Origin: Trujillonella endophytica
GTDB taxonomy: Bacteria; Actinomycetota; Actinomycetes; Mycobacteriales; Geodermatophilaceae
Reading direction: 5' to 3'
Length of the DNA: 64,000 nucleotides
NCBI RefSeq assembly: GCF_900110555.1
Contig: NZ_FOEE01000009.1
Coordinates: 124,001-188,000, forward strand
Part shown: positions 29,539 through 35,085 of the stretch, piece by piece
Layout of the letters: the number at the start of each line of letters is the position of its first letter
How positions within the stretch are numbered: the stretch's first letter is position 1
Notes under the pieces: generated by a model
What the model saw: the letters and a program-made list of their open reading frames with translations, nothing else
What the model was told of the DNA's origin: nothing
The model's database searches: none
Position numbers and translations under genes: made by a program

Positions 29539-29928
29539 GTGGAGCGAGCGGCACCGCGCGTCCTCGTCGCCGACGACGAGGACGACATCCGCGGCCTCGT
29601 GCGCCTGGCCGTGCGGCGCGCCGGGTGCACCGTGGTCGCCGAGGTGGCCGACGGTCTCGCGGCCCTGGACGCCGCCCGGACCGCCGTGCCCGATCTGGCG
29701 GTGCTCGACGTGTCGATGCCCGGCGCCACCGGCCTGGAGGTCTGCGCCGCGCTGCGGGCGGACGCTGACCTGTCGGGCATCCGGGTGCTGCTGCTGTCGG
29801 CCGGCGCGTCCGCCGACGACGTCGCCCGCGGGCTGGCCGCCGGTGCCGACAGCTACCTCGCCAAGCCCTTCTCGGTGGCCGGCCTCGTGACTCGGGTCCG
29901 CGAGCTCGCCGCCGGGGGCACCGCATGA
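29539..29928 (+). CDS. Stand-alone response regulator receiver
   Basis: A 129-residue CheY-like receiver without an output domain. The acidic pair D12-D13, phosphoacceptor D57 (LAVLDVSMPG) and K109 (YLAKPF) are all present, so it should be phosphorylated. It overlaps the start of the PAS kinase by 4 bp and is probably its partner. The output would be by protein contact, or by passing phosphate to another protein such as the regulator at 34384-35085. A hairpin in the leader (29498-29522) overlaps a GGAGG and could affect translation. Confidence 0.95.
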   Translation: MERAAPRVLVADDEDDIRGLVRLAVRRAGCTVVAEVADGLAALDAARTAVPDLAVLDVSMPGATGLEVCAALRADADLSGIRVLLLSAGASADDVARGLAAGADSYLAKPFSVAGLVTRVRELAAGGTA

Positions 29929-31199
29929 CCGCCGTCGACGCGTTCCCGCCGACCACCGACGCCCTGCCCCTCGACGACGCCGGGCTGCTGCGCGCGGAGG
30001 TGGCCCGGCTGACCGGCGAGCGCGACGCGCTGCGCGCGCAGATGGAGCGCCGGGACGTCGAGCTCGAGACCGCCACCCGCATGCTTGCCGCCCGCGCGCA
30101 GACGATGACCAGCGTCATTGACGCCGTCACCGAGCAGTCGATCATCGGCACCGACGTCGACGGCGTCGTCCGCGTCTGGAACCCCGGCGCCGAGAAGCTG
30201 CTGGGCCGGCCGCGCGCCGACGTCGTCCGGAAGCAGCGGATCACCGACTTCCACCTCGCCGAGGAGCTGGCCGCGGCCGGCGGCGGGCTGTCCGCGCTGG
30301 TGCAGGTGGCCCTGGCCGAGGGCCGTGACGTCCGGGACTGGACGTACGTGACGGCCACCGGCGAGGAGCGCACGGTGTCGGTCGCGGTCACCCCGCGCAG
30401 CGACGACTCCGGGGAGCACGCCGGCTGGAACTTCGTCGGCACCGACATGACCGAGGCCCGCGCCGCCGAGCGGCTCAAGGACCAGTTCGTCAGCCTGATC
30501 AGCCACGAGCTGCGGACGCCGCTGAGCGCGATCCTCGGCTACCTGGAGCTCGTCCTCGACGACCCCGACCAGCCCCTCACCGACGAGCAGCGGTCCTACC
30601 TGTCGATCGTGGAGCGCAACGCCCAGCGGCTGCTCCGGCTGGTCGGCGACCTGCTGTTCACCGCGCAGGTCGAGGCCGGCCGGTTCACCCTCCAGCCCGA
30701 GGACGTCGACCTCTCCGCCGTCCTCCGGGGCGCCGAGGAGACCGCCCGCGTGGCCGCGACCGCCGGGGGCGTGCGGGTGGACCTGGAGCTGCCCGCCGAG
30801 GCTCTGGTGGTCCGCGGGGACGCCGTCCGGCTCGGGCAGGCCTGCGACAACCTCGTCTCCAACGCCGTGAAGTTCACCCCGGCCGGCGGGCGGGTCACCC
30901 TGACCCTGCGGGCCGGCTGGCAGCACGCCGACGGCCGGTTCGGCGACCGGGAGCTGCCCGGGACGGCGCCCGTCGTCCGCATCGCGGTCCGCGACACCGG
31001 CTACGGCATCCCCGCCGCCGAGCTCGACCAGCTGTTCACCCGCTTCTTCCGTGCCTCCACCGCGCGGCGCAATGCCGTCAAGGGCGTGGGTCTCGGTCTG
31101 TCGATCACCAAGGCGATCACCACGGCGCACGGGGGCACACTCGACGTCGCCAGCGTCGAGGGCCGGGGCACCACCTTCACGCTGACGCTCCCCCGCTGA
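29925..31199 (+). CDS. PAS-domain sensor histidine kinase, soluble
   Basis: A 424-residue cytoplasmic kinase with no membrane segment. A coiled coil (about 20-62) leads into a PAS domain (about 63-178, IGTDVDGVVRVWNPGAEKLL). The dimerisation/phosphoacceptor H-box LISHELRTPLSAILGY has H194. The HATPase domain has N box DNLVSNAVKF, G1 DTGYGIP and G2 GVGLGLSI. The PAS domain suggests sensing of a small ligand, redox or light; the ligand is unknown. It is coupled to the receiver gene by an ATGA overlap and is followed at once by the 24-bp repeat array and the fibre genes. Confidence 0.96.
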   Translation: MTAVDAFPPTTDALPLDDAGLLRAEVARLTGERDALRAQMERRDVELETATRMLAARAQTMTSVIDAVTEQSIIGTDVDGVVRVWNPGAEKLLGRPRADVVRKQRITDFHLAEELAAAGGGLSALVQVALAEGRDVRDWTYVTATGEERTVSVAVTPRSDDSGEHAGWNFVGTDMTEARAAERLKDQFVSLISHELRTPLSAILGYLELVLDDPDQPLTDEQRSYLSIVERNAQRLLRLVGDLLFTAQVEAGRFTLQPEDVDLSAVLRGAEETARVAATAGGVRVDLELPAEALVVRGDAVRLGQACDNLVSNAVKFTPAGGRVTLTLRAGWQHADGRFGDRELPGTAPVVRIAVRDTGYGIPAAELDQLFTRFFRASTARRNAVKGVGLGLSITKAITTAHGGTLDVASVEGRGTTFTLTLPR

Positions 31200-31374
31200 C
31201 CCCGCGCAACTCCGCGCTTCTGCCCCGGCGCAATTCCGCGCTTCCGCGCCGGGGCAATTCCGCGCTTCCGCACCAGGGCAATTCCGCGCTTCCGCACCGG
31301 GGCAATTCCGCGCTTCCGCGCCGGGGCAATTCCGCGCTTCCGCGCCGGGGCAATTCCGCGCTTCCGCGCCGGGC
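31200..31374. repeat. 24-bp tandem repeat array, seven copies
   Basis: Seven head-to-tail copies with core CAATTCCGCGCTTCCGC begin at 31207, 31231, 31255, 31279, 31303, 31327 and 31351, exactly 24 bp apart. The flanking GCCGGGG varies slightly (gcc, acc). The first copy and the broken eighth copy are diverged. The array begins at the nucleotide after the kinase stop and ends 28 bp before the fibre-gene operator. There are no spacers, so it is a minisatellite and not CRISPR. Because the unit is a multiple of three, it opens spurious frames on both strands. Confidence 0.9.
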
Positions 31375-31402
31375 ACTGTCCCGCCGGGGGTACGGGCGGC
31401 AA

Positions 31403-31456
31403 TTGCGGAAGCCTTGCGGATCGCGGGCGGGTGGGCTGCGGTTGCCGGCCCAGAGT
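31403..31456 (+). promoter_or_regulatory. Fibre-gene promoter P1: 11-bp direct repeat plus -10-like box
   Basis: TTGCGG at 31403-31408 and 31414-31419 form a direct repeat of 11-bp period. CAGAGT at 31451-31456 begins 37 bp from the second hexamer. Bases 31424-31448 are identical over 25 bp to 33061-33085 in P2. This is typical spacing for an OmpR-type activator upstream of a promoter. It drives the TasA-like gene 53 bp downstream. Confidence 0.6.
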
Positions 31457-31509
31457 CGTTCCTGCCAGCCGGGACACCCCGCCCCCGGCCCAGCCCGCAG
31501 GAGACCGAC

Positions 31510-32121
31510 ATGACCACCACCGCCGCCACCACCCGCAAGATCGTCGGCTCCCTCGGCGTCCTCGGCGCAGCCGCCGCCGTCGCCGGCCTCGGCACCTTCG
31601 GCACGTTCACCGACTCCACCACCCCGGTCACCGCCAACGTCGCCTCCGGCACCGTCGACATCGACCTGACCAGCCCGGCGAACGCCATCACCGTCCCCGC
31701 CACGGGCCTGGTCCCCGGCGACTCCGCCTCCCGCGCCCTCACCCTGCGCAACCTCGGCACCGCGGACCTCTCCTCGGTCTCGCTCGCCGTCACCGCACCC
31801 ACCAGCAGCGTCCTGGACACCAACACCGCGCTCGGCCTGCAGCTCTCCATCGACGCCTGCACCGTGCCCTGGACCCAGGCCGGCACCGCGACCGCCCCCA
31901 CCTACACCTGCACCGGCGGCATCACCCGCTCCGTGCTCCCCGCCACCCCGGTCAAGGGCACCCACACGCTGAACAACCTGACCGGTCTCACCGCGGGCAA
32001 CACCGACCACCTCGTCTTCACGGTCACCCTGCCCGCCGGCGCCGACAACACGTTCCAGAACAAGACCACCGTCCTGAACCTCGTCTTCACCGGCGTCCAG
32101 CGCAACGCCACCACCCGCTGA
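31510..32121 (+). CDS. TasA/CalY-like fibre-forming secreted protein (SipW-type signal)
   Basis: A 203-residue exported protein. A short charged N-terminus and hydrophobic helix (about 10-29) run into GTFGTFTDS, the SipW-type cleavage region like that of Bacillus TasA. The mature part has the family hallmarks: ASGTVDIDL (45-53), LVPGDSASRALTLRN (67-81) and a beta-rich body to the C-terminus with one Cys pair in ACTVPW and YTCTGG. TasA/CalY proteins polymerise into matrix fibres. The partner signal peptidase is encoded 1 kb downstream. The ATG follows GGAGACCGAC. Actual fibre formation here is inference. Confidence 0.93.
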   Translation: MTTTAATTRKIVGSLGVLGAAAAVAGLGTFGTFTDSTTPVTANVASGTVDIDLTSPANAITVPATGLVPGDSASRALTLRNLGTADLSSVSLAVTAPTSSVLDTNTALGLQLSIDACTVPWTQAGTATAPTYTCTGGITRSVLPATPVKGTHTLNNLTGLTAGNTDHLVFTVTLPAGADNTFQNKTTVLNLVFTGVQRNATTR

Positions 32122-32171
32122 CCGCCACCCCGGCCATCACCGACCACCGACCACGACGACGGAGGGACCCG

Positions 32172-32351
32172 ATGACCCGCACCGCCTTCCCGGCGCACCG
32201 GCTCGCCGTCCCGGGGCTCGTGCTCGCCCTGGTCGTCACCGGCACCCTGCCGGTCTGGGCAGCTGCCGCCTCCGCCCGACCGGAGCCGACCCGCGTCTGC
32301 GCCGTCGACGCCTCCGCCCCCGCCGACCACGCGGAGCCGGGCCGATGCTGA
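32172..32351 (+). CDS. Small secreted protein between fibre and regulator genes
   Basis: A 59-residue product with a classical signal peptide (hydrophobic VPGLVLALVVTGTLPVWA, likely cleaved after AAASA or nearby). The mature part of about 25 residues holds two cysteines (RVCAVDAS... GRC). GGAGGGACCC precedes the ATG, and its stop overlaps the start of the next gene, so it is a real part of the operon. No family is recognised. It could be a minor fibre component, a signal peptide-type pheromone or a disulfide-linked cap. Confidence 0.7.
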   Translation: MTRTAFPAHRLAVPGLVLALVVTGTLPVWAAAASARPEPTRVCAVDASAPADHAEPGRC

Positions 32352-33001
32352 CCGCACTGGTCGTCGGGCCCGACGCCACCGACCGCGCTCGCACCGCCGC
32401 CCTGGTGTCGGCCGCCGGGTGGCAGGTCCGGGAGGCCACCGGCGTCCGCGAGGCCCTGGCCGTGGCCCGCTCCGCGGAGCTGGACCTGGTGGTGACCGAC
32501 CTCGGCATGCCCGACGGCGACGGGCCCGCGCTGCTGCGCCGGCTGCGCCTGAGCGGCTGCCGCGCGCACCTGGTGGGCACCGCGACCGAGCCCACCGCCG
32601 AGGTCCGCGAGGCCGGGAGCGCGGCGGGGGCGTTCGCCGTCCTCCCCGCCCCGGTCGACGCCGGCGTGCTGCTGCGCTTCCTGCTGGGCCGGGGCACGGC
32701 CGCGGCGGACGGCGGACCCGCCGACGACACGACCGAGGACATCGTGGACGGCGACCTCGACGGCCGGCTGCAGGAGCTCTACGTCAGCGCCCTCCCGGGT
32801 CGCCTGTCCGCCATCGACGCCGGGGCCCGCGCCGGGGACGCCCCCGCGCTCGCTTTCGCCTCCACCACCCTCGCCGGCACCAGCGCGCAGCTGGGACACC
32901 CCGAGGTGGCGCAGCTGTGCCGGGCCATCGCCGCGGACGCGCGCCGCGGTGTCCTCGCGCACGAGCTGGTCGACCGGCTGCTGGACCTCGCGACCGCCTG
33001 A
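32345..33001 (+). CDS. Degenerate receiver plus Hpt-like domain protein
   Basis: A 218-residue protein. The receiver (1-115) keeps the phosphoacceptor D52 (VVTDLGMPDGDG). It lacks the usual acidic pair after strand 1 (VVGPDATD) and has Ala102 in place of the conserved Lys (LPAPVD). The C-terminal helical domain (about 135-218) aligns with Hpt domains, LAGTSAQLGHPEVAQLCRAI matching the region after the phosphohistidine. The His is Thr174 and the following Lys is Ala177. It therefore probably works by binding rather than by phosphotransfer, perhaps holding a regulator of this locus. The ATG overlaps the previous stop. Confidence 0.88.
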   Translation: MLTALVVGPDATDRARTAALVSAAGWQVREATGVREALAVARSAELDLVVTDLGMPDGDGPALLRRLRLSGCRAHLVGTATEPTAEVREAGSAAGAFAVLPAPVDAGVLLRFLLGRGTAAADGGPADDTTEDIVDGDLDGRLQELYVSALPGRLSAIDAGARAGDAPALAFASTTLAGTSAQLGHPEVAQLCRAIAADARRGVLAHELVDRLLDLATA

Positions 33002-33039
33002 GCCGCGCACCGCCGTCTCCCCGGGCCCCGGCCGGCACG

Positions 33040-33093
33040 TTGCGGAGACCTTGCGGCGGCCGGGCGGGTGGGCTGCGGTTGCCGGACCAGTGT
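33040..33093 (+). promoter_or_regulatory. Fibre-locus promoter P2 (signal peptidase)
   Basis: TTGCGG at 33040-33045 and 33051-33056 (11-bp period), then CAGTGT at 33088-33093 beginning 37 bp from the second hexamer. It has the same geometry as P1 and shares a 25-bp identical stretch with it. It precedes the signal peptidase gene by 65 bp. Confidence 0.6.
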
Positions 33094-33158
33094 GGTTCCT
33101 GCCGGCGAGGAACCGGCGCCGCGCGCCACCGCCGACCACGAGATCCTCCGGAGACACC

Positions 33159-33800
33159 ATGACCGCCGTCCTCCCCGCCCGCGCACCGGGCGCCGTCCGC
33201 GAGCCGGCCCCGGTCGCGGAGGCCACGGGCACCGCTCGCCCCGCCCCGATCCGCGCCGCGGCCCGCCTCGCCGGCCGCTGGACGCTGCGCGCGCTCGTCG
33301 CCGCTGCGGTGCTGGCCTTCCTCGGCCTGGCCGTCGGCCCGCACGTCCTCGGCTACCGCACCATGACGATGCTGACCGGGAGCATGGCGCCCGCGATCGC
33401 CCCGGGCGACGTCATCGTGTCCACGCCTGTGGACGTGGACGACGTCGCGGTCGGGATGATCATCACCTACCGCATCCCGGTCGACGACCACCGCGTCGTC
33501 ACCCACCGCGTGGTCGAGGTGGAGCGGACCGCCGCCGACGGCACCCTGTCGGTCCGCACCCAGGGCGACGCCAACGCCGCTGCGGACCCCTGGACCGCTG
33601 TCCTCTCCGGCGACACGGCCTGGCAGGTGCAGGCCGTCGTCCCGAAGCTCGGGACCGTGATCACGGCCCTGCGCGACCCCGCCGTCTCCACGGCCCTCGT
33701 CTACGGCGCGCCGGCCCTGCTCGCCGCCTGGATGCTGCTGACCATCTGGCGGCCGGCCCGCGACGAGCAGCCCGCCGAGGCCCCCGCGCCTGACGCCTGA
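33159..33800 (+). CDS. Signal peptidase I, SipW/ER (Sec11) type
   Basis: A 213-residue membrane protease. An N-terminal helix (about 43-62) is followed by the catalytic Ser motif MLTGSMAPAIAPGD with S75. VTHRVVEV has His116 where bacterial-type enzymes carry Lys, and GDANAAAD supplies the acidic residues. A C-terminal helix (about 176-196) follows. The Ser-His chemistry is that of SipW, which processes TasA and TapA in Bacillus and is dedicated to such substrates. Both nearby secreted proteins carry SipW-type cleavage regions. GGAGACACC precedes ATG 33159. Confidence 0.93.
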   Translation: MTAVLPARAPGAVREPAPVAEATGTARPAPIRAAARLAGRWTLRALVAAAVLAFLGLAVGPHVLGYRTMTMLTGSMAPAIAPGDVIVSTPVDVDDVAVGMIITYRIPVDDHRVVTHRVVEVERTAADGTLSVRTQGDANAAADPWTAVLSGDTAWQVQAVVPKLGTVITALRDPAVSTALVYGAPALLAAWMLLTIWRPARDEQPAEAPAPDA

Positions 33801-33807
33801 CGCCCCC

Positions 33808-33861
33808 TTGTGCATCCCTTGCGGCAACCGCGCGGGGACCCCGCGCTCGGCGGACCAGAGT
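33808..33861 (+). promoter_or_regulatory. Fibre-locus promoter P3 (Fn3-like secreted protein)
   Basis: TTGTGC at 33808-33813 and TTGCGG at 33819-33824 (11-bp period), then CAGAGT at 33856-33861, again exactly 37 bp from the second hexamer. The sequence between differs from P1 and P2, so the conserved parts are those expected for protein binding. Confidence 0.55.
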
Positions 33862-33920
33862 TCGACCTGTTCCCGGCAGCCCCCGCCGGTGACCACCCGC
33901 ACCCGAGAGGAGTCCGAGCC

Positions 33921-34379
33921 ATGATCCGCACTCGACGCAGCGCGCTCCTGCTCGTCCTCGCCGTCGCCGTCCTGCTCGGGGCCGCCCTGCCCGCGCACGC
34001 CCGGTTCTCCGACACCGGCGCCGTCACCACGGCCCCGATGCGCACGGTCGACGTGCTGCCGCCGACCAACCTCAGCACCGCGGGCACCAAGTGCGTCCCG
34101 GTCCACAACTCCGCCGGCCAGCAGACGGGCACCCGCCTGGAGGCCAAGCTGAGCTGGACCGCCAGCCCCACGCCGGGCGTCGTCCGCTACGTGGTGAGCG
34201 CGCACGTCAACGGCACTCTCTACCCGTACCCGGTGGCCGTCATCGACGCGCCGAACACGGTCGCCCGCGACGACTACGACGCCTCGGTGCTCGCCAACGA
34301 CGTGAAGGTCAGCATCACCGCGGTGACCGGCTACGGCTGGACCGAGCAGTCGGTGCTGTCGGGCAGCATCCGCTGCTGA
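33921..34379 (+). CDS. Secreted protein with SipW-type signal and Fn3-like domain
   Basis: A 152-residue exported protein. An Arg-rich start and a hydrophobic helix (about 8-24) are followed by AHARFSDTGAVTTAPM, which resembles the post-cleavage region of TasA-like proteins. The mature part reads as one fibronectin-III-like sandwich (PPTNLSTAG, LSWTASPTPGVVRYVVSAHV). Two cysteines, one early and one as the last residue, may form a disulfide. It plays the part that TapA plays in Bacillus by position, but is not a homologue I recognise. Its SD is GAGAGGAG. It is convergent with the OmpR-type regulator, 4 bp apart. Confidence 0.88.
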   Translation: MIRTRRSALLLVLAVAVLLGAALPAHARFSDTGAVTTAPMRTVDVLPPTNLSTAGTKCVPVHNSAGQQTGTRLEAKLSWTASPTPGVVRYVVSAHVNGTLYPYPVAVIDAPNTVARDDYDASVLANDVKVSITAVTGYGWTEQSVLSGSIRC

Positions 34380-34383
34380 TCGA

Positions 34384-35085
34384 CTACGCGACGAGCCGGT
34401 AGCCCACGCCGCGCACGGTCTTGATCTCGGGCGAGCTGAGCCCGGCGGCCTGCAGCTTGCGGCGCAGGTTGGACATGTGCGCCTCGACCAGGCGGACGCT
34501 GCCCTCCCAGTCGGTCTGCCACACCTCGCGCAGCAGCGTCTCGCGCTGCAGCACCCGGCCCGGCCGCGAGGCCAGGGCCGCGAGCAGGTCGAACTCGGTG
34601 CGGGTCAGGTCGACGACGGCGCCGTCGACCCGGACCTCGCGGCTGTCCTCGTCGACCTCGAGCTCGGCCAGCCGGCGGACGGAGTCCTCGACGGGCGCGG
34701 CGTCGGAAGGGACCGCCACGCGGGGACGGCGCAGCATGACCTGCACGCGCGCCACGAGCTCGCGCGGCGAGAACGGCTTGGCCATGTACCCGTCGGCCCC
34801 GACCGCGAGACCGATCAGGAGGTCGACCTCCTCGGCGCGGGCGGTGAGCATCAGCACGTAGCACTCGGACTCGGCGCGGATCTGCCGGCACACCTCGGTG
34901 CCGTCGGCGTCCGGGAGCCCGAGGTCCAGGACGACGACGTCCGGAGCGGACCGCCGCACCTCCTCGAGCGCCTCGGCGCCGGTGCCCACCGCACGCACGT
35001 CCATCCCGGCGCGGGTGAGCACGGTGCAGACCAGCTCACGGATCTCGTCGGTGTCCTCGACGACCAGCACGGACTGCTCGGCCAC
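34384..35085 (-). CDS. OmpR/PhoB-type response regulator
   Basis: A 233-residue regulator. The receiver has acidic residues E10-D11, phosphoacceptor D54 (VVVLDLGLPD) and the Lys in YMAKPF. The C-terminal winged helix (about 140-233) has LTRTEFDLLAALASRPGRVL, SVRLVEAHMSNLRRKL and IKTVRGVGYRL. OmpR-type dimers bind direct repeats about 10-11 bp apart, which is the form of the repeats at P1-P3. It is therefore the best candidate activator of the fibre genes. No histidine kinase is adjacent; the PAS kinase at 29925 is the nearest. GTG 35085 has GGGAGGA. Confidence 0.96.
   Translation of the reverse strand: MAEQSVLVVEDTDEIRELVCTVLTRAGMDVRAVGTGAEALEEVRRSAPDVVVLDLGLPDADGTEVCRQIRAESECYVLMLTARAEEVDLLIGLAVGADGYMAKPFSPRELVARVQVMLRRPRVAVPSDAAPVEDSVRRLAELEVDEDSREVRVDGAVVDLTRTEFDLLAALASRPGRVLQRETLLREVWQTDWEGSVRLVEAHMSNLRRKLQAAGLSSPEIKTVRGVGYRLVA

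Follow-up and report, generated by a model that had tools for sequence, protein, structure and literature searches.

A TasA/SipW-type locus with in-locus signalling genes and a four-half-site control array in Geodermatophilaceae

We analyzed the block at positions 29539–35085 of a 64,000-nucleotide stretch of Trujillonella endophytica DNA (contig NZ_FOEE01000009.1, positions 124,001 to 188,000; the whole stretch is referred to below as the window). The block holds eight genes together with control arrays. A sequence-only reading, made without database searches, had described it as a self-contained TasA/SipW-type fibre locus with its own signalling genes. By computation we established the identities of the genes, their conserved co-location in relatives, and a control array with its position in front of the genes. 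The locus is probably a dedicated TasA-type donor-strand fibre operon, which would have its own SipW processing and its own PhoB-like activating regulator. To our knowledge, work on TasA-type fibres has been confined almost entirely to Bacillus and related bacteria.

Results

Conservation of the locus

A sample of 115 Geodermatophilaceae genomes was used to examine conservation. The TasA-like protein was found in 77 of them, the receiver-Hpt protein in 76 and the fibronectin type III (Fn3) protein in 57. Orthologues of sipW occurred in 71 genomes, and all 71 also had tasA. The co-location check on relatives, which had been set beforehand, placed tasA within 5 kb of 72 of the 76 sipW genes and found no sipW genome without tasA. 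The other four sipW genes lay at contig edges or were fragmentary. Among 40 loci chosen for tasA, sipW was present in 39, the kinase in 38, the Fn3 and OmpR-type genes in 37 each, the receiver-Hpt gene in 35 and the stand-alone receiver in 33. The commonest order was receiver, kinase, tasA, sipW, Fn3 and receiver-Hpt, followed by a convergent OmpR-type gene. Co-location is kept in 8–9 genera of the family and thus the gene grouping is not due to chance.

Three relatives from the host genus carry two tasA-sipW units (L099, L101, L104). In the window, sipW has a tasA-type promoter, and the second copy of the nearest relative is the closest match to the window tasA (72% versus 59%). For these reasons the window locus looks like a collapsed form of the tasA-sipW duplication.

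The coordinates and strands given in the sequence-only reading were reproduced. The features are as follows (window positions, strand, description).

29539–29928, plus: stand-alone receiver RR1 (PF00072, 89.5 bits); phospho-acceptor Asp kept; adjacent to the kinase in relatives also
29925–31199, plus: soluble PAS-HisKA-HATPase sensor kinase (PF00512, PF02518, PAS_4; H-box SHELRTP)
31206–31373, no strand: 24-bp tandem repeat, seven copies, between kinase and tasA
31403–31441, plus: array 1, four half-sites at 11-bp period 5′ of the tasA-like gene, perfect match
31451–31456, plus: CAGAGT, -10-like element 48 bp from the start of array 1; conserved block in 51 aligned upstream regions
31510–32121, plus: TasA/CalY (M73) secreted protein, proposed fibre subunit (PF12389; predicted cleavage GTFG/TFTDS)
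32172–32351, plus: 59-residue secreted protein, overlapping the receiver-Hpt gene
32345–33001, plus: receiver-Hpt adaptor, degenerate (PF00072, 39.5 bits; PF01627, 27.1 bits)
33040–33078, plus: array 2, four half-sites 5′ of sipW, perfect match; CAGTGT at 33088
33159–33800, plus: signal peptidase I of the SipW/endoplasmic reticulum (ER) type (TIGR02228; Ser75, His116, GDAN motif)
33808–33861, plus: array 3, degenerate copy 5′ of the Fn3 gene seen in the sequence (TTGTGC-N5-TTGCGG); CAGAGT 48 bp from its start
33921–34379, plus: secreted single-domain Fn3-fold protein (Fn3 profile matches, structure model, Foldseek)
34384–35085, minus, convergent: OmpR/PhoB-type response regulator, proposed array binder (PF00072, 97.9 bits; PF00486, 91.6 bits)

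Control arrays

The array has the pattern TTGCGG-N5-TTGCGG-N6-GGCGG-N5-CTGCGG, that is, four half-sites with an 11-bp period. The exact core, TTGCGG-N5-TTGCGG, occurs twice in the window, once 5′ of tasA and once 5′ of sipW. When the four-half-site pattern was searched with up to three mismatches, the window gave two matches, both perfect, against 0.01 expected. The host genome (4.87 Mb) contains three perfect arrays and none with one or two mismatches.

An array was found in 51 of the 53 tasA upstream regions examined. The 51 regions were aligned and read CTTGCGGattcCTTGCGGa.cgC.GGCGGGtGgCCTGCGG, followed by 9 bp and CAGAGT, so that the array ends just 5′ of the -10-like element. At all three promoters of the window (31451, 33088 and 33856) the distance from array start to -10-like hexamer is exactly 48 bp. 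This layout of array and -10 element is that of the pho box, the target of PhoB. The core repeat is intact 5′ of the Fn3 gene in two relatives of the same genus (L101 and L104).

Across Geodermatophilaceae we counted 144 exact core sites, compared with about 15 for a reversed-pattern control. Ninety of the 144 are located 90–135 bp upstream of tasA-like genes, unlinked paralogues included. One unlinked tasA paralogue of the host (L150, C17:160033-160382) is apparently frameshifted, as the match resumes in another frame; its core repeat is retained and has a single mismatch.

The third perfect array of the host genome (C13:4437–4475, minus strand; L191:2840-3190) lies 5′ of a structured, apparently non-coding RNA, and similar loci are present in relatives (L171, L174–L179). 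The RNA sequence contains repeated hairpins with CACGGGGGGAC loops and a terminator-like stem, has a fold z of -6.2 in the host genome and is conserved in several relatives. No Rfam family matched these loci. The C13 sequence is presented as a candidate family of regulated small RNA (sRNA), and its array is probably one further target of the switch. The locus had been called self-contained, but it is not wholly so, since unlinked tasA paralogues in relatives and the candidate sRNA share the control site.

Signalling proteins

Five signalling parts had been counted from the sequence, whereas the block contains four signalling genes: the receiver, the PAS kinase, the receiver-Hpt gene and the OmpR-type gene. 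The receiver RR1 and kinase genes overlap at ATGA. No transmembrane segment was predicted in the kinase by hydropathy, and its H-box His is present in 47 of 47 sequences.

The receiver-Hpt protein was rightly called degenerate. Its receiver keeps Asp52 and has Ala in place of the receiver Lys, and Thr174 replaces the Hpt His. The Hpt phospho-histidine is lost in the host genus, in most of genus g4 and often elsewhere, whereas the receiver Asp is mostly kept. The protein therefore more probably acts as an adaptor by binding than as a step in a phosphorelay.

The recognition helix of the OmpR-type regulator is (L/V)RLVEAHMSNLRRKL in 46 of 47 ungapped sequences. Other families of the order also have loci that combine TasA, SipW and two-component genes (L227, L228, L234, L235). 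In these four loci the 11-bp repeats read TTGAGG or similar, not TTGCGG, and the recognition helix of the regulator is changed as well. That half-site and helix change together supports, with moderate strength, the OmpR-type protein as the array binder.

The TasA-like subunit

The TasA/CalY-like protein was confirmed by its match to PF12389 (39.1 bits, cut-off 22.5). It misses the NCBI TasA equivalog NF046066, scoring 20.1 bits against a cut-off of 450, and is thus a member of the family and not Bacillus TasA itself. A profile made from 35 TasA-like relatives matches TasA structures 8aur and 5of1 with an E value of about 2.5e-6. The predicted monomer has a predicted local distance difference test score (pLDDT) of 85 and a predicted template modelling score of 0.80. 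Compared with TasA crystal structures 5of2 and 5of1_A, the model is a jellyroll with a Z score of 10.6 and a root-mean-square deviation of 2.5 over 126–130 residues (next entry, 7.8). Residues 1–13 of the mature chain have pLDDT below 50 in the monomer model. Bacillus TasA uses its mature N-terminus as the donor strand (PMC9674648).

The SipW-type peptidase, the signals and the Fn3 protein

The Ser-His signal peptidase of the SipW/ER type was likewise verified. It scores 67.0 bits on TIGR02228 (cut-off 51.85) and 56.9 bits on the NCBI SipW equivalog NF046067, below the cut-off of 190; it is not Bacillus SipW proper. It aligns with human SEC11A, and Ser75 and His116, a Ser-His and not a Ser-Lys pair, are kept across orthologues. 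A second SipW-type peptidase (85.7 bits) is encoded on host contig C16, with a second M73-family protein about 4 kb away (C16:167000-182000, L151); no array was found in that region.

The cleavage site of B. subtilis TasA is TWA/AFND. By alignment with this protein, the site of the TasA-like protein was placed at TFG/TFTD, which has an aromatic P2 and Phe at P2′ and falls within a near-invariant alignment block. The NCBIfam "SipW-dependent exported protein" models matched neither the TasA-like nor the Fn3 protein.

For the Fn3 protein, Pfam and NCBIfam gave no family, and no direct TapA profile comparison was made. Its profile matches fibronectin repeats (2.9e-7). The structure model has a pLDDT of 87, and its Foldseek list is topped by Fn3 domains (best E value 1.7e-3). 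An Fn3-like body with a SipW-type cleavage region had been proposed. The fold stands, while a SipW-only site is less clear than in the TasA-like protein, as the region contains an AxA motif besides Phe at P2′. When Fn3 N-termini were compared with a TasA N-terminal profile, many relatives scored above shuffles, the best with 14.2 bits (0 of 50 shuffles as high). In genus g3 (L163, L164, L170), the control site precedes secreted peptides of 64–65 residues that resemble the TasA signal and donor-strand segment alone.

Other features of the block

The 59-residue secreted protein is present as described. It has no family match in Pfam or NCBIfam, and its homologues are within the host genus only. 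Rfam gave no match in the block. The 24-bp repeat was ruled out as a locus-specific element: it has 37 near-copies genome-wide and is thus a dispersed intergenic repeat of the host genome.

Discussion

Proposed function and alternatives

In the proposed function, Sec would export the TasA-like jellyroll protein and the SipW of the locus would cut its signal. Cleavage would free an N-terminal strand, which could insert into the next subunit by donor-strand exchange and so build an extracellular filament. The Fn3 protein would most likely be TapA-like and start, cap or anchor the fibre; Bacillus TapA starts or anchors the fibre (PMC10151520, PMC9674648). Some signal would reach the soluble PAS kinase and pass to the receiver and the receiver-Hpt adaptor, and then to the OmpR/PhoB-type regulator. 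Bound to the four-half-site array, the regulator would switch on tasA, sipW and the Fn3 gene, unlinked tasA paralogues in relatives, and the structured RNA.

Several points weigh against this function. Fibres, signal cleavage and polymerization are predicted, as are the part played by the Fn3 protein and the pairing of the regulator with the array; the suggested pairing draws on association and on the four outgroup loci. The N-terminus of the window's own Fn3 protein resembles the TasA segment weakly, with 1.8 bits, a score reached by 1 of 50 shuffles. The AxA motif of this protein would also be compatible with an ordinary signal peptidase. Seven loci (L138, L139, L142–L146) have the kinase, receiver-Hpt and OmpR-type genes and lack tasA and sipW. 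Since the signalling genes survive there without tasA and sipW, the regulator has other duties or targets, and the signalling genes cannot be called purely fibre-specific.

The same seven loci would be expected if the signalling genes were unrelated neighbours and the arrays were used by another regulator, which we consider unlikely. Some core sites also precede genes without an evident connection to the locus; in four genomes (L172, L173, L181, L192) the gene is that of an ABC-F ATPase, and these ABC-F sites are a probable coincidence in a conserved flank. However, no core site was found in genera g5–g8, the family genomes without the locus, and where the signalling genes are kept without tasA, the core repeat mostly stays 5′ of the receiver-Hpt gene (five of the seven loci). 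The co-variation of recognition helix and half-site in other families also argues for the OmpR-type protein, and 11-bp direct repeats are a known type of target for OmpR/PhoB regulators.

Another reading, that the housekeeping signal peptidase processes both the Fn3 and the TasA-like protein as ordinary secreted surface proteins and that SipW serves other substrates, is quite unlikely. In its favour, an ordinary signal peptidase I is encoded in the host genome (contig C33, 133 bits), the second SipW-type peptidase on C16 lies near a second M73 protein, and the Fn3 signal has an AxA motif. Against it, the GTFG/TFTD site of the TasA-like protein has the aromatic P2 and the Phe at P2′ that are reported to impede LepB, the housekeeping peptidase (PMC10269814), and no sipW orthologue occurs without tasA in the family sample.

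That the M73 protein is a secreted camelysin-type protease and the locus a protease export system, in line with the Pfam title of PF12389 ("camelysin metallo-endopeptidase"), is very improbable, because its fold and closest solved relatives are those of TasA, a fibre subunit, residue conservation covers the donor segment and the PGD loop as well as the C-terminal FQGK...LxLxFTGTQ strand, and no conserved HExxH-like metal site was seen in the family alignment.

Comparison with known systems

The nearest known system in kind is sipW-bsaABCRSD of C. perfringens, and the nearest in parts is tapA-sipW-tasA of B. subtilis. The C. perfringens operon also combines SipW, a polymer-forming secreted protein and an in-operon two-component system, BsaR/BsaS, of which BsaR binds the sipW promoter (PMC7395162). 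It belongs to another phylum. In the present locus, the kinase is a soluble PAS protein, an additional receiver and a degenerate receiver-Hpt protein are present, an Fn3 protein is encoded and the OmpR-type gene is convergent. The present locus also has a defined array of four half-sites, of which further members lie elsewhere in the genome.

With B. subtilis the locus shares a TasA-family subunit, a dedicated ER-type SipW and a small accessory protein, a beta-sandwich whose N-terminus is donor-like. Unlike in B. subtilis, no TapA homologue was recognized here in the Pfam and NCBIfam matches, the accessory protein has an Fn3 fold and not the V-set immunoglobulin fold of TapA, and the gene order differs. 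The B. subtilis operon is controlled by SinR, whereas an in-locus two-component system and a direct-repeat array are found here. In B. cereus, sipW-calY/tasA with CapP has two TasA-family subunits, one SipW and an accessory assembly protein (PMC4292775, PMC13082335). Some relatives of the present host also have two tasA genes, but no CapP homologue was identified here and the regulators are others. The archaeal bundling pili made of AbpA/AbpX are related to TasA-like fibres built by donor strands; the profile of the 35 TasA-like relatives matches AbpX weakly and marginally (E 0.17–0.38).

The locus had been called a distinct, possibly undescribed version of the system. This is fair, except that C. 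perfringens is already known to have a SipW fibre operon that includes its own two-component system (PMC7395162). What is new here is the control element, and the locus stands apart by its phylum, its accessory protein, its additional signalling proteins and its cis-array. We found no description of the locus in actinobacteria in the open-access papers searched, and absence there is no proof.

A broader and more doubtful possibility is an actinobacterial class of donor-strand fibres. In such a class, the Fn3 protein, and in some relatives also free donor-strand-like secreted peptides of about 35 residues, might start or end TasA-type filaments. One PhoB-like regulator might also drive a structured sRNA, and the receiver-Hpt protein, its phospho-histidine repeatedly lost, might act by binding.

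Meaning for the family

G. obscurus (Geodermatophilus) forms strong extracellular amyloid (PMC3035280). In the genome of probable G. obscurus (G049, L138), the switch is present and no match to tasA or sipW was found. The locus is thus not supported as the source of that amyloid and does not explain it. This is a useful negative, as the amyloid must have another source if, as appears, the species lacks tasA and sipW.

Known habitats of the Geodermatophilaceae include rock varnish and building stone as well as desert crusts. The locus represents a family-wide TasA-type version in these bacteria with a defined genetic switch. Its two promoters, one regulator, one peptidase and one subunit offer a handle on the possible making of a protein matrix.

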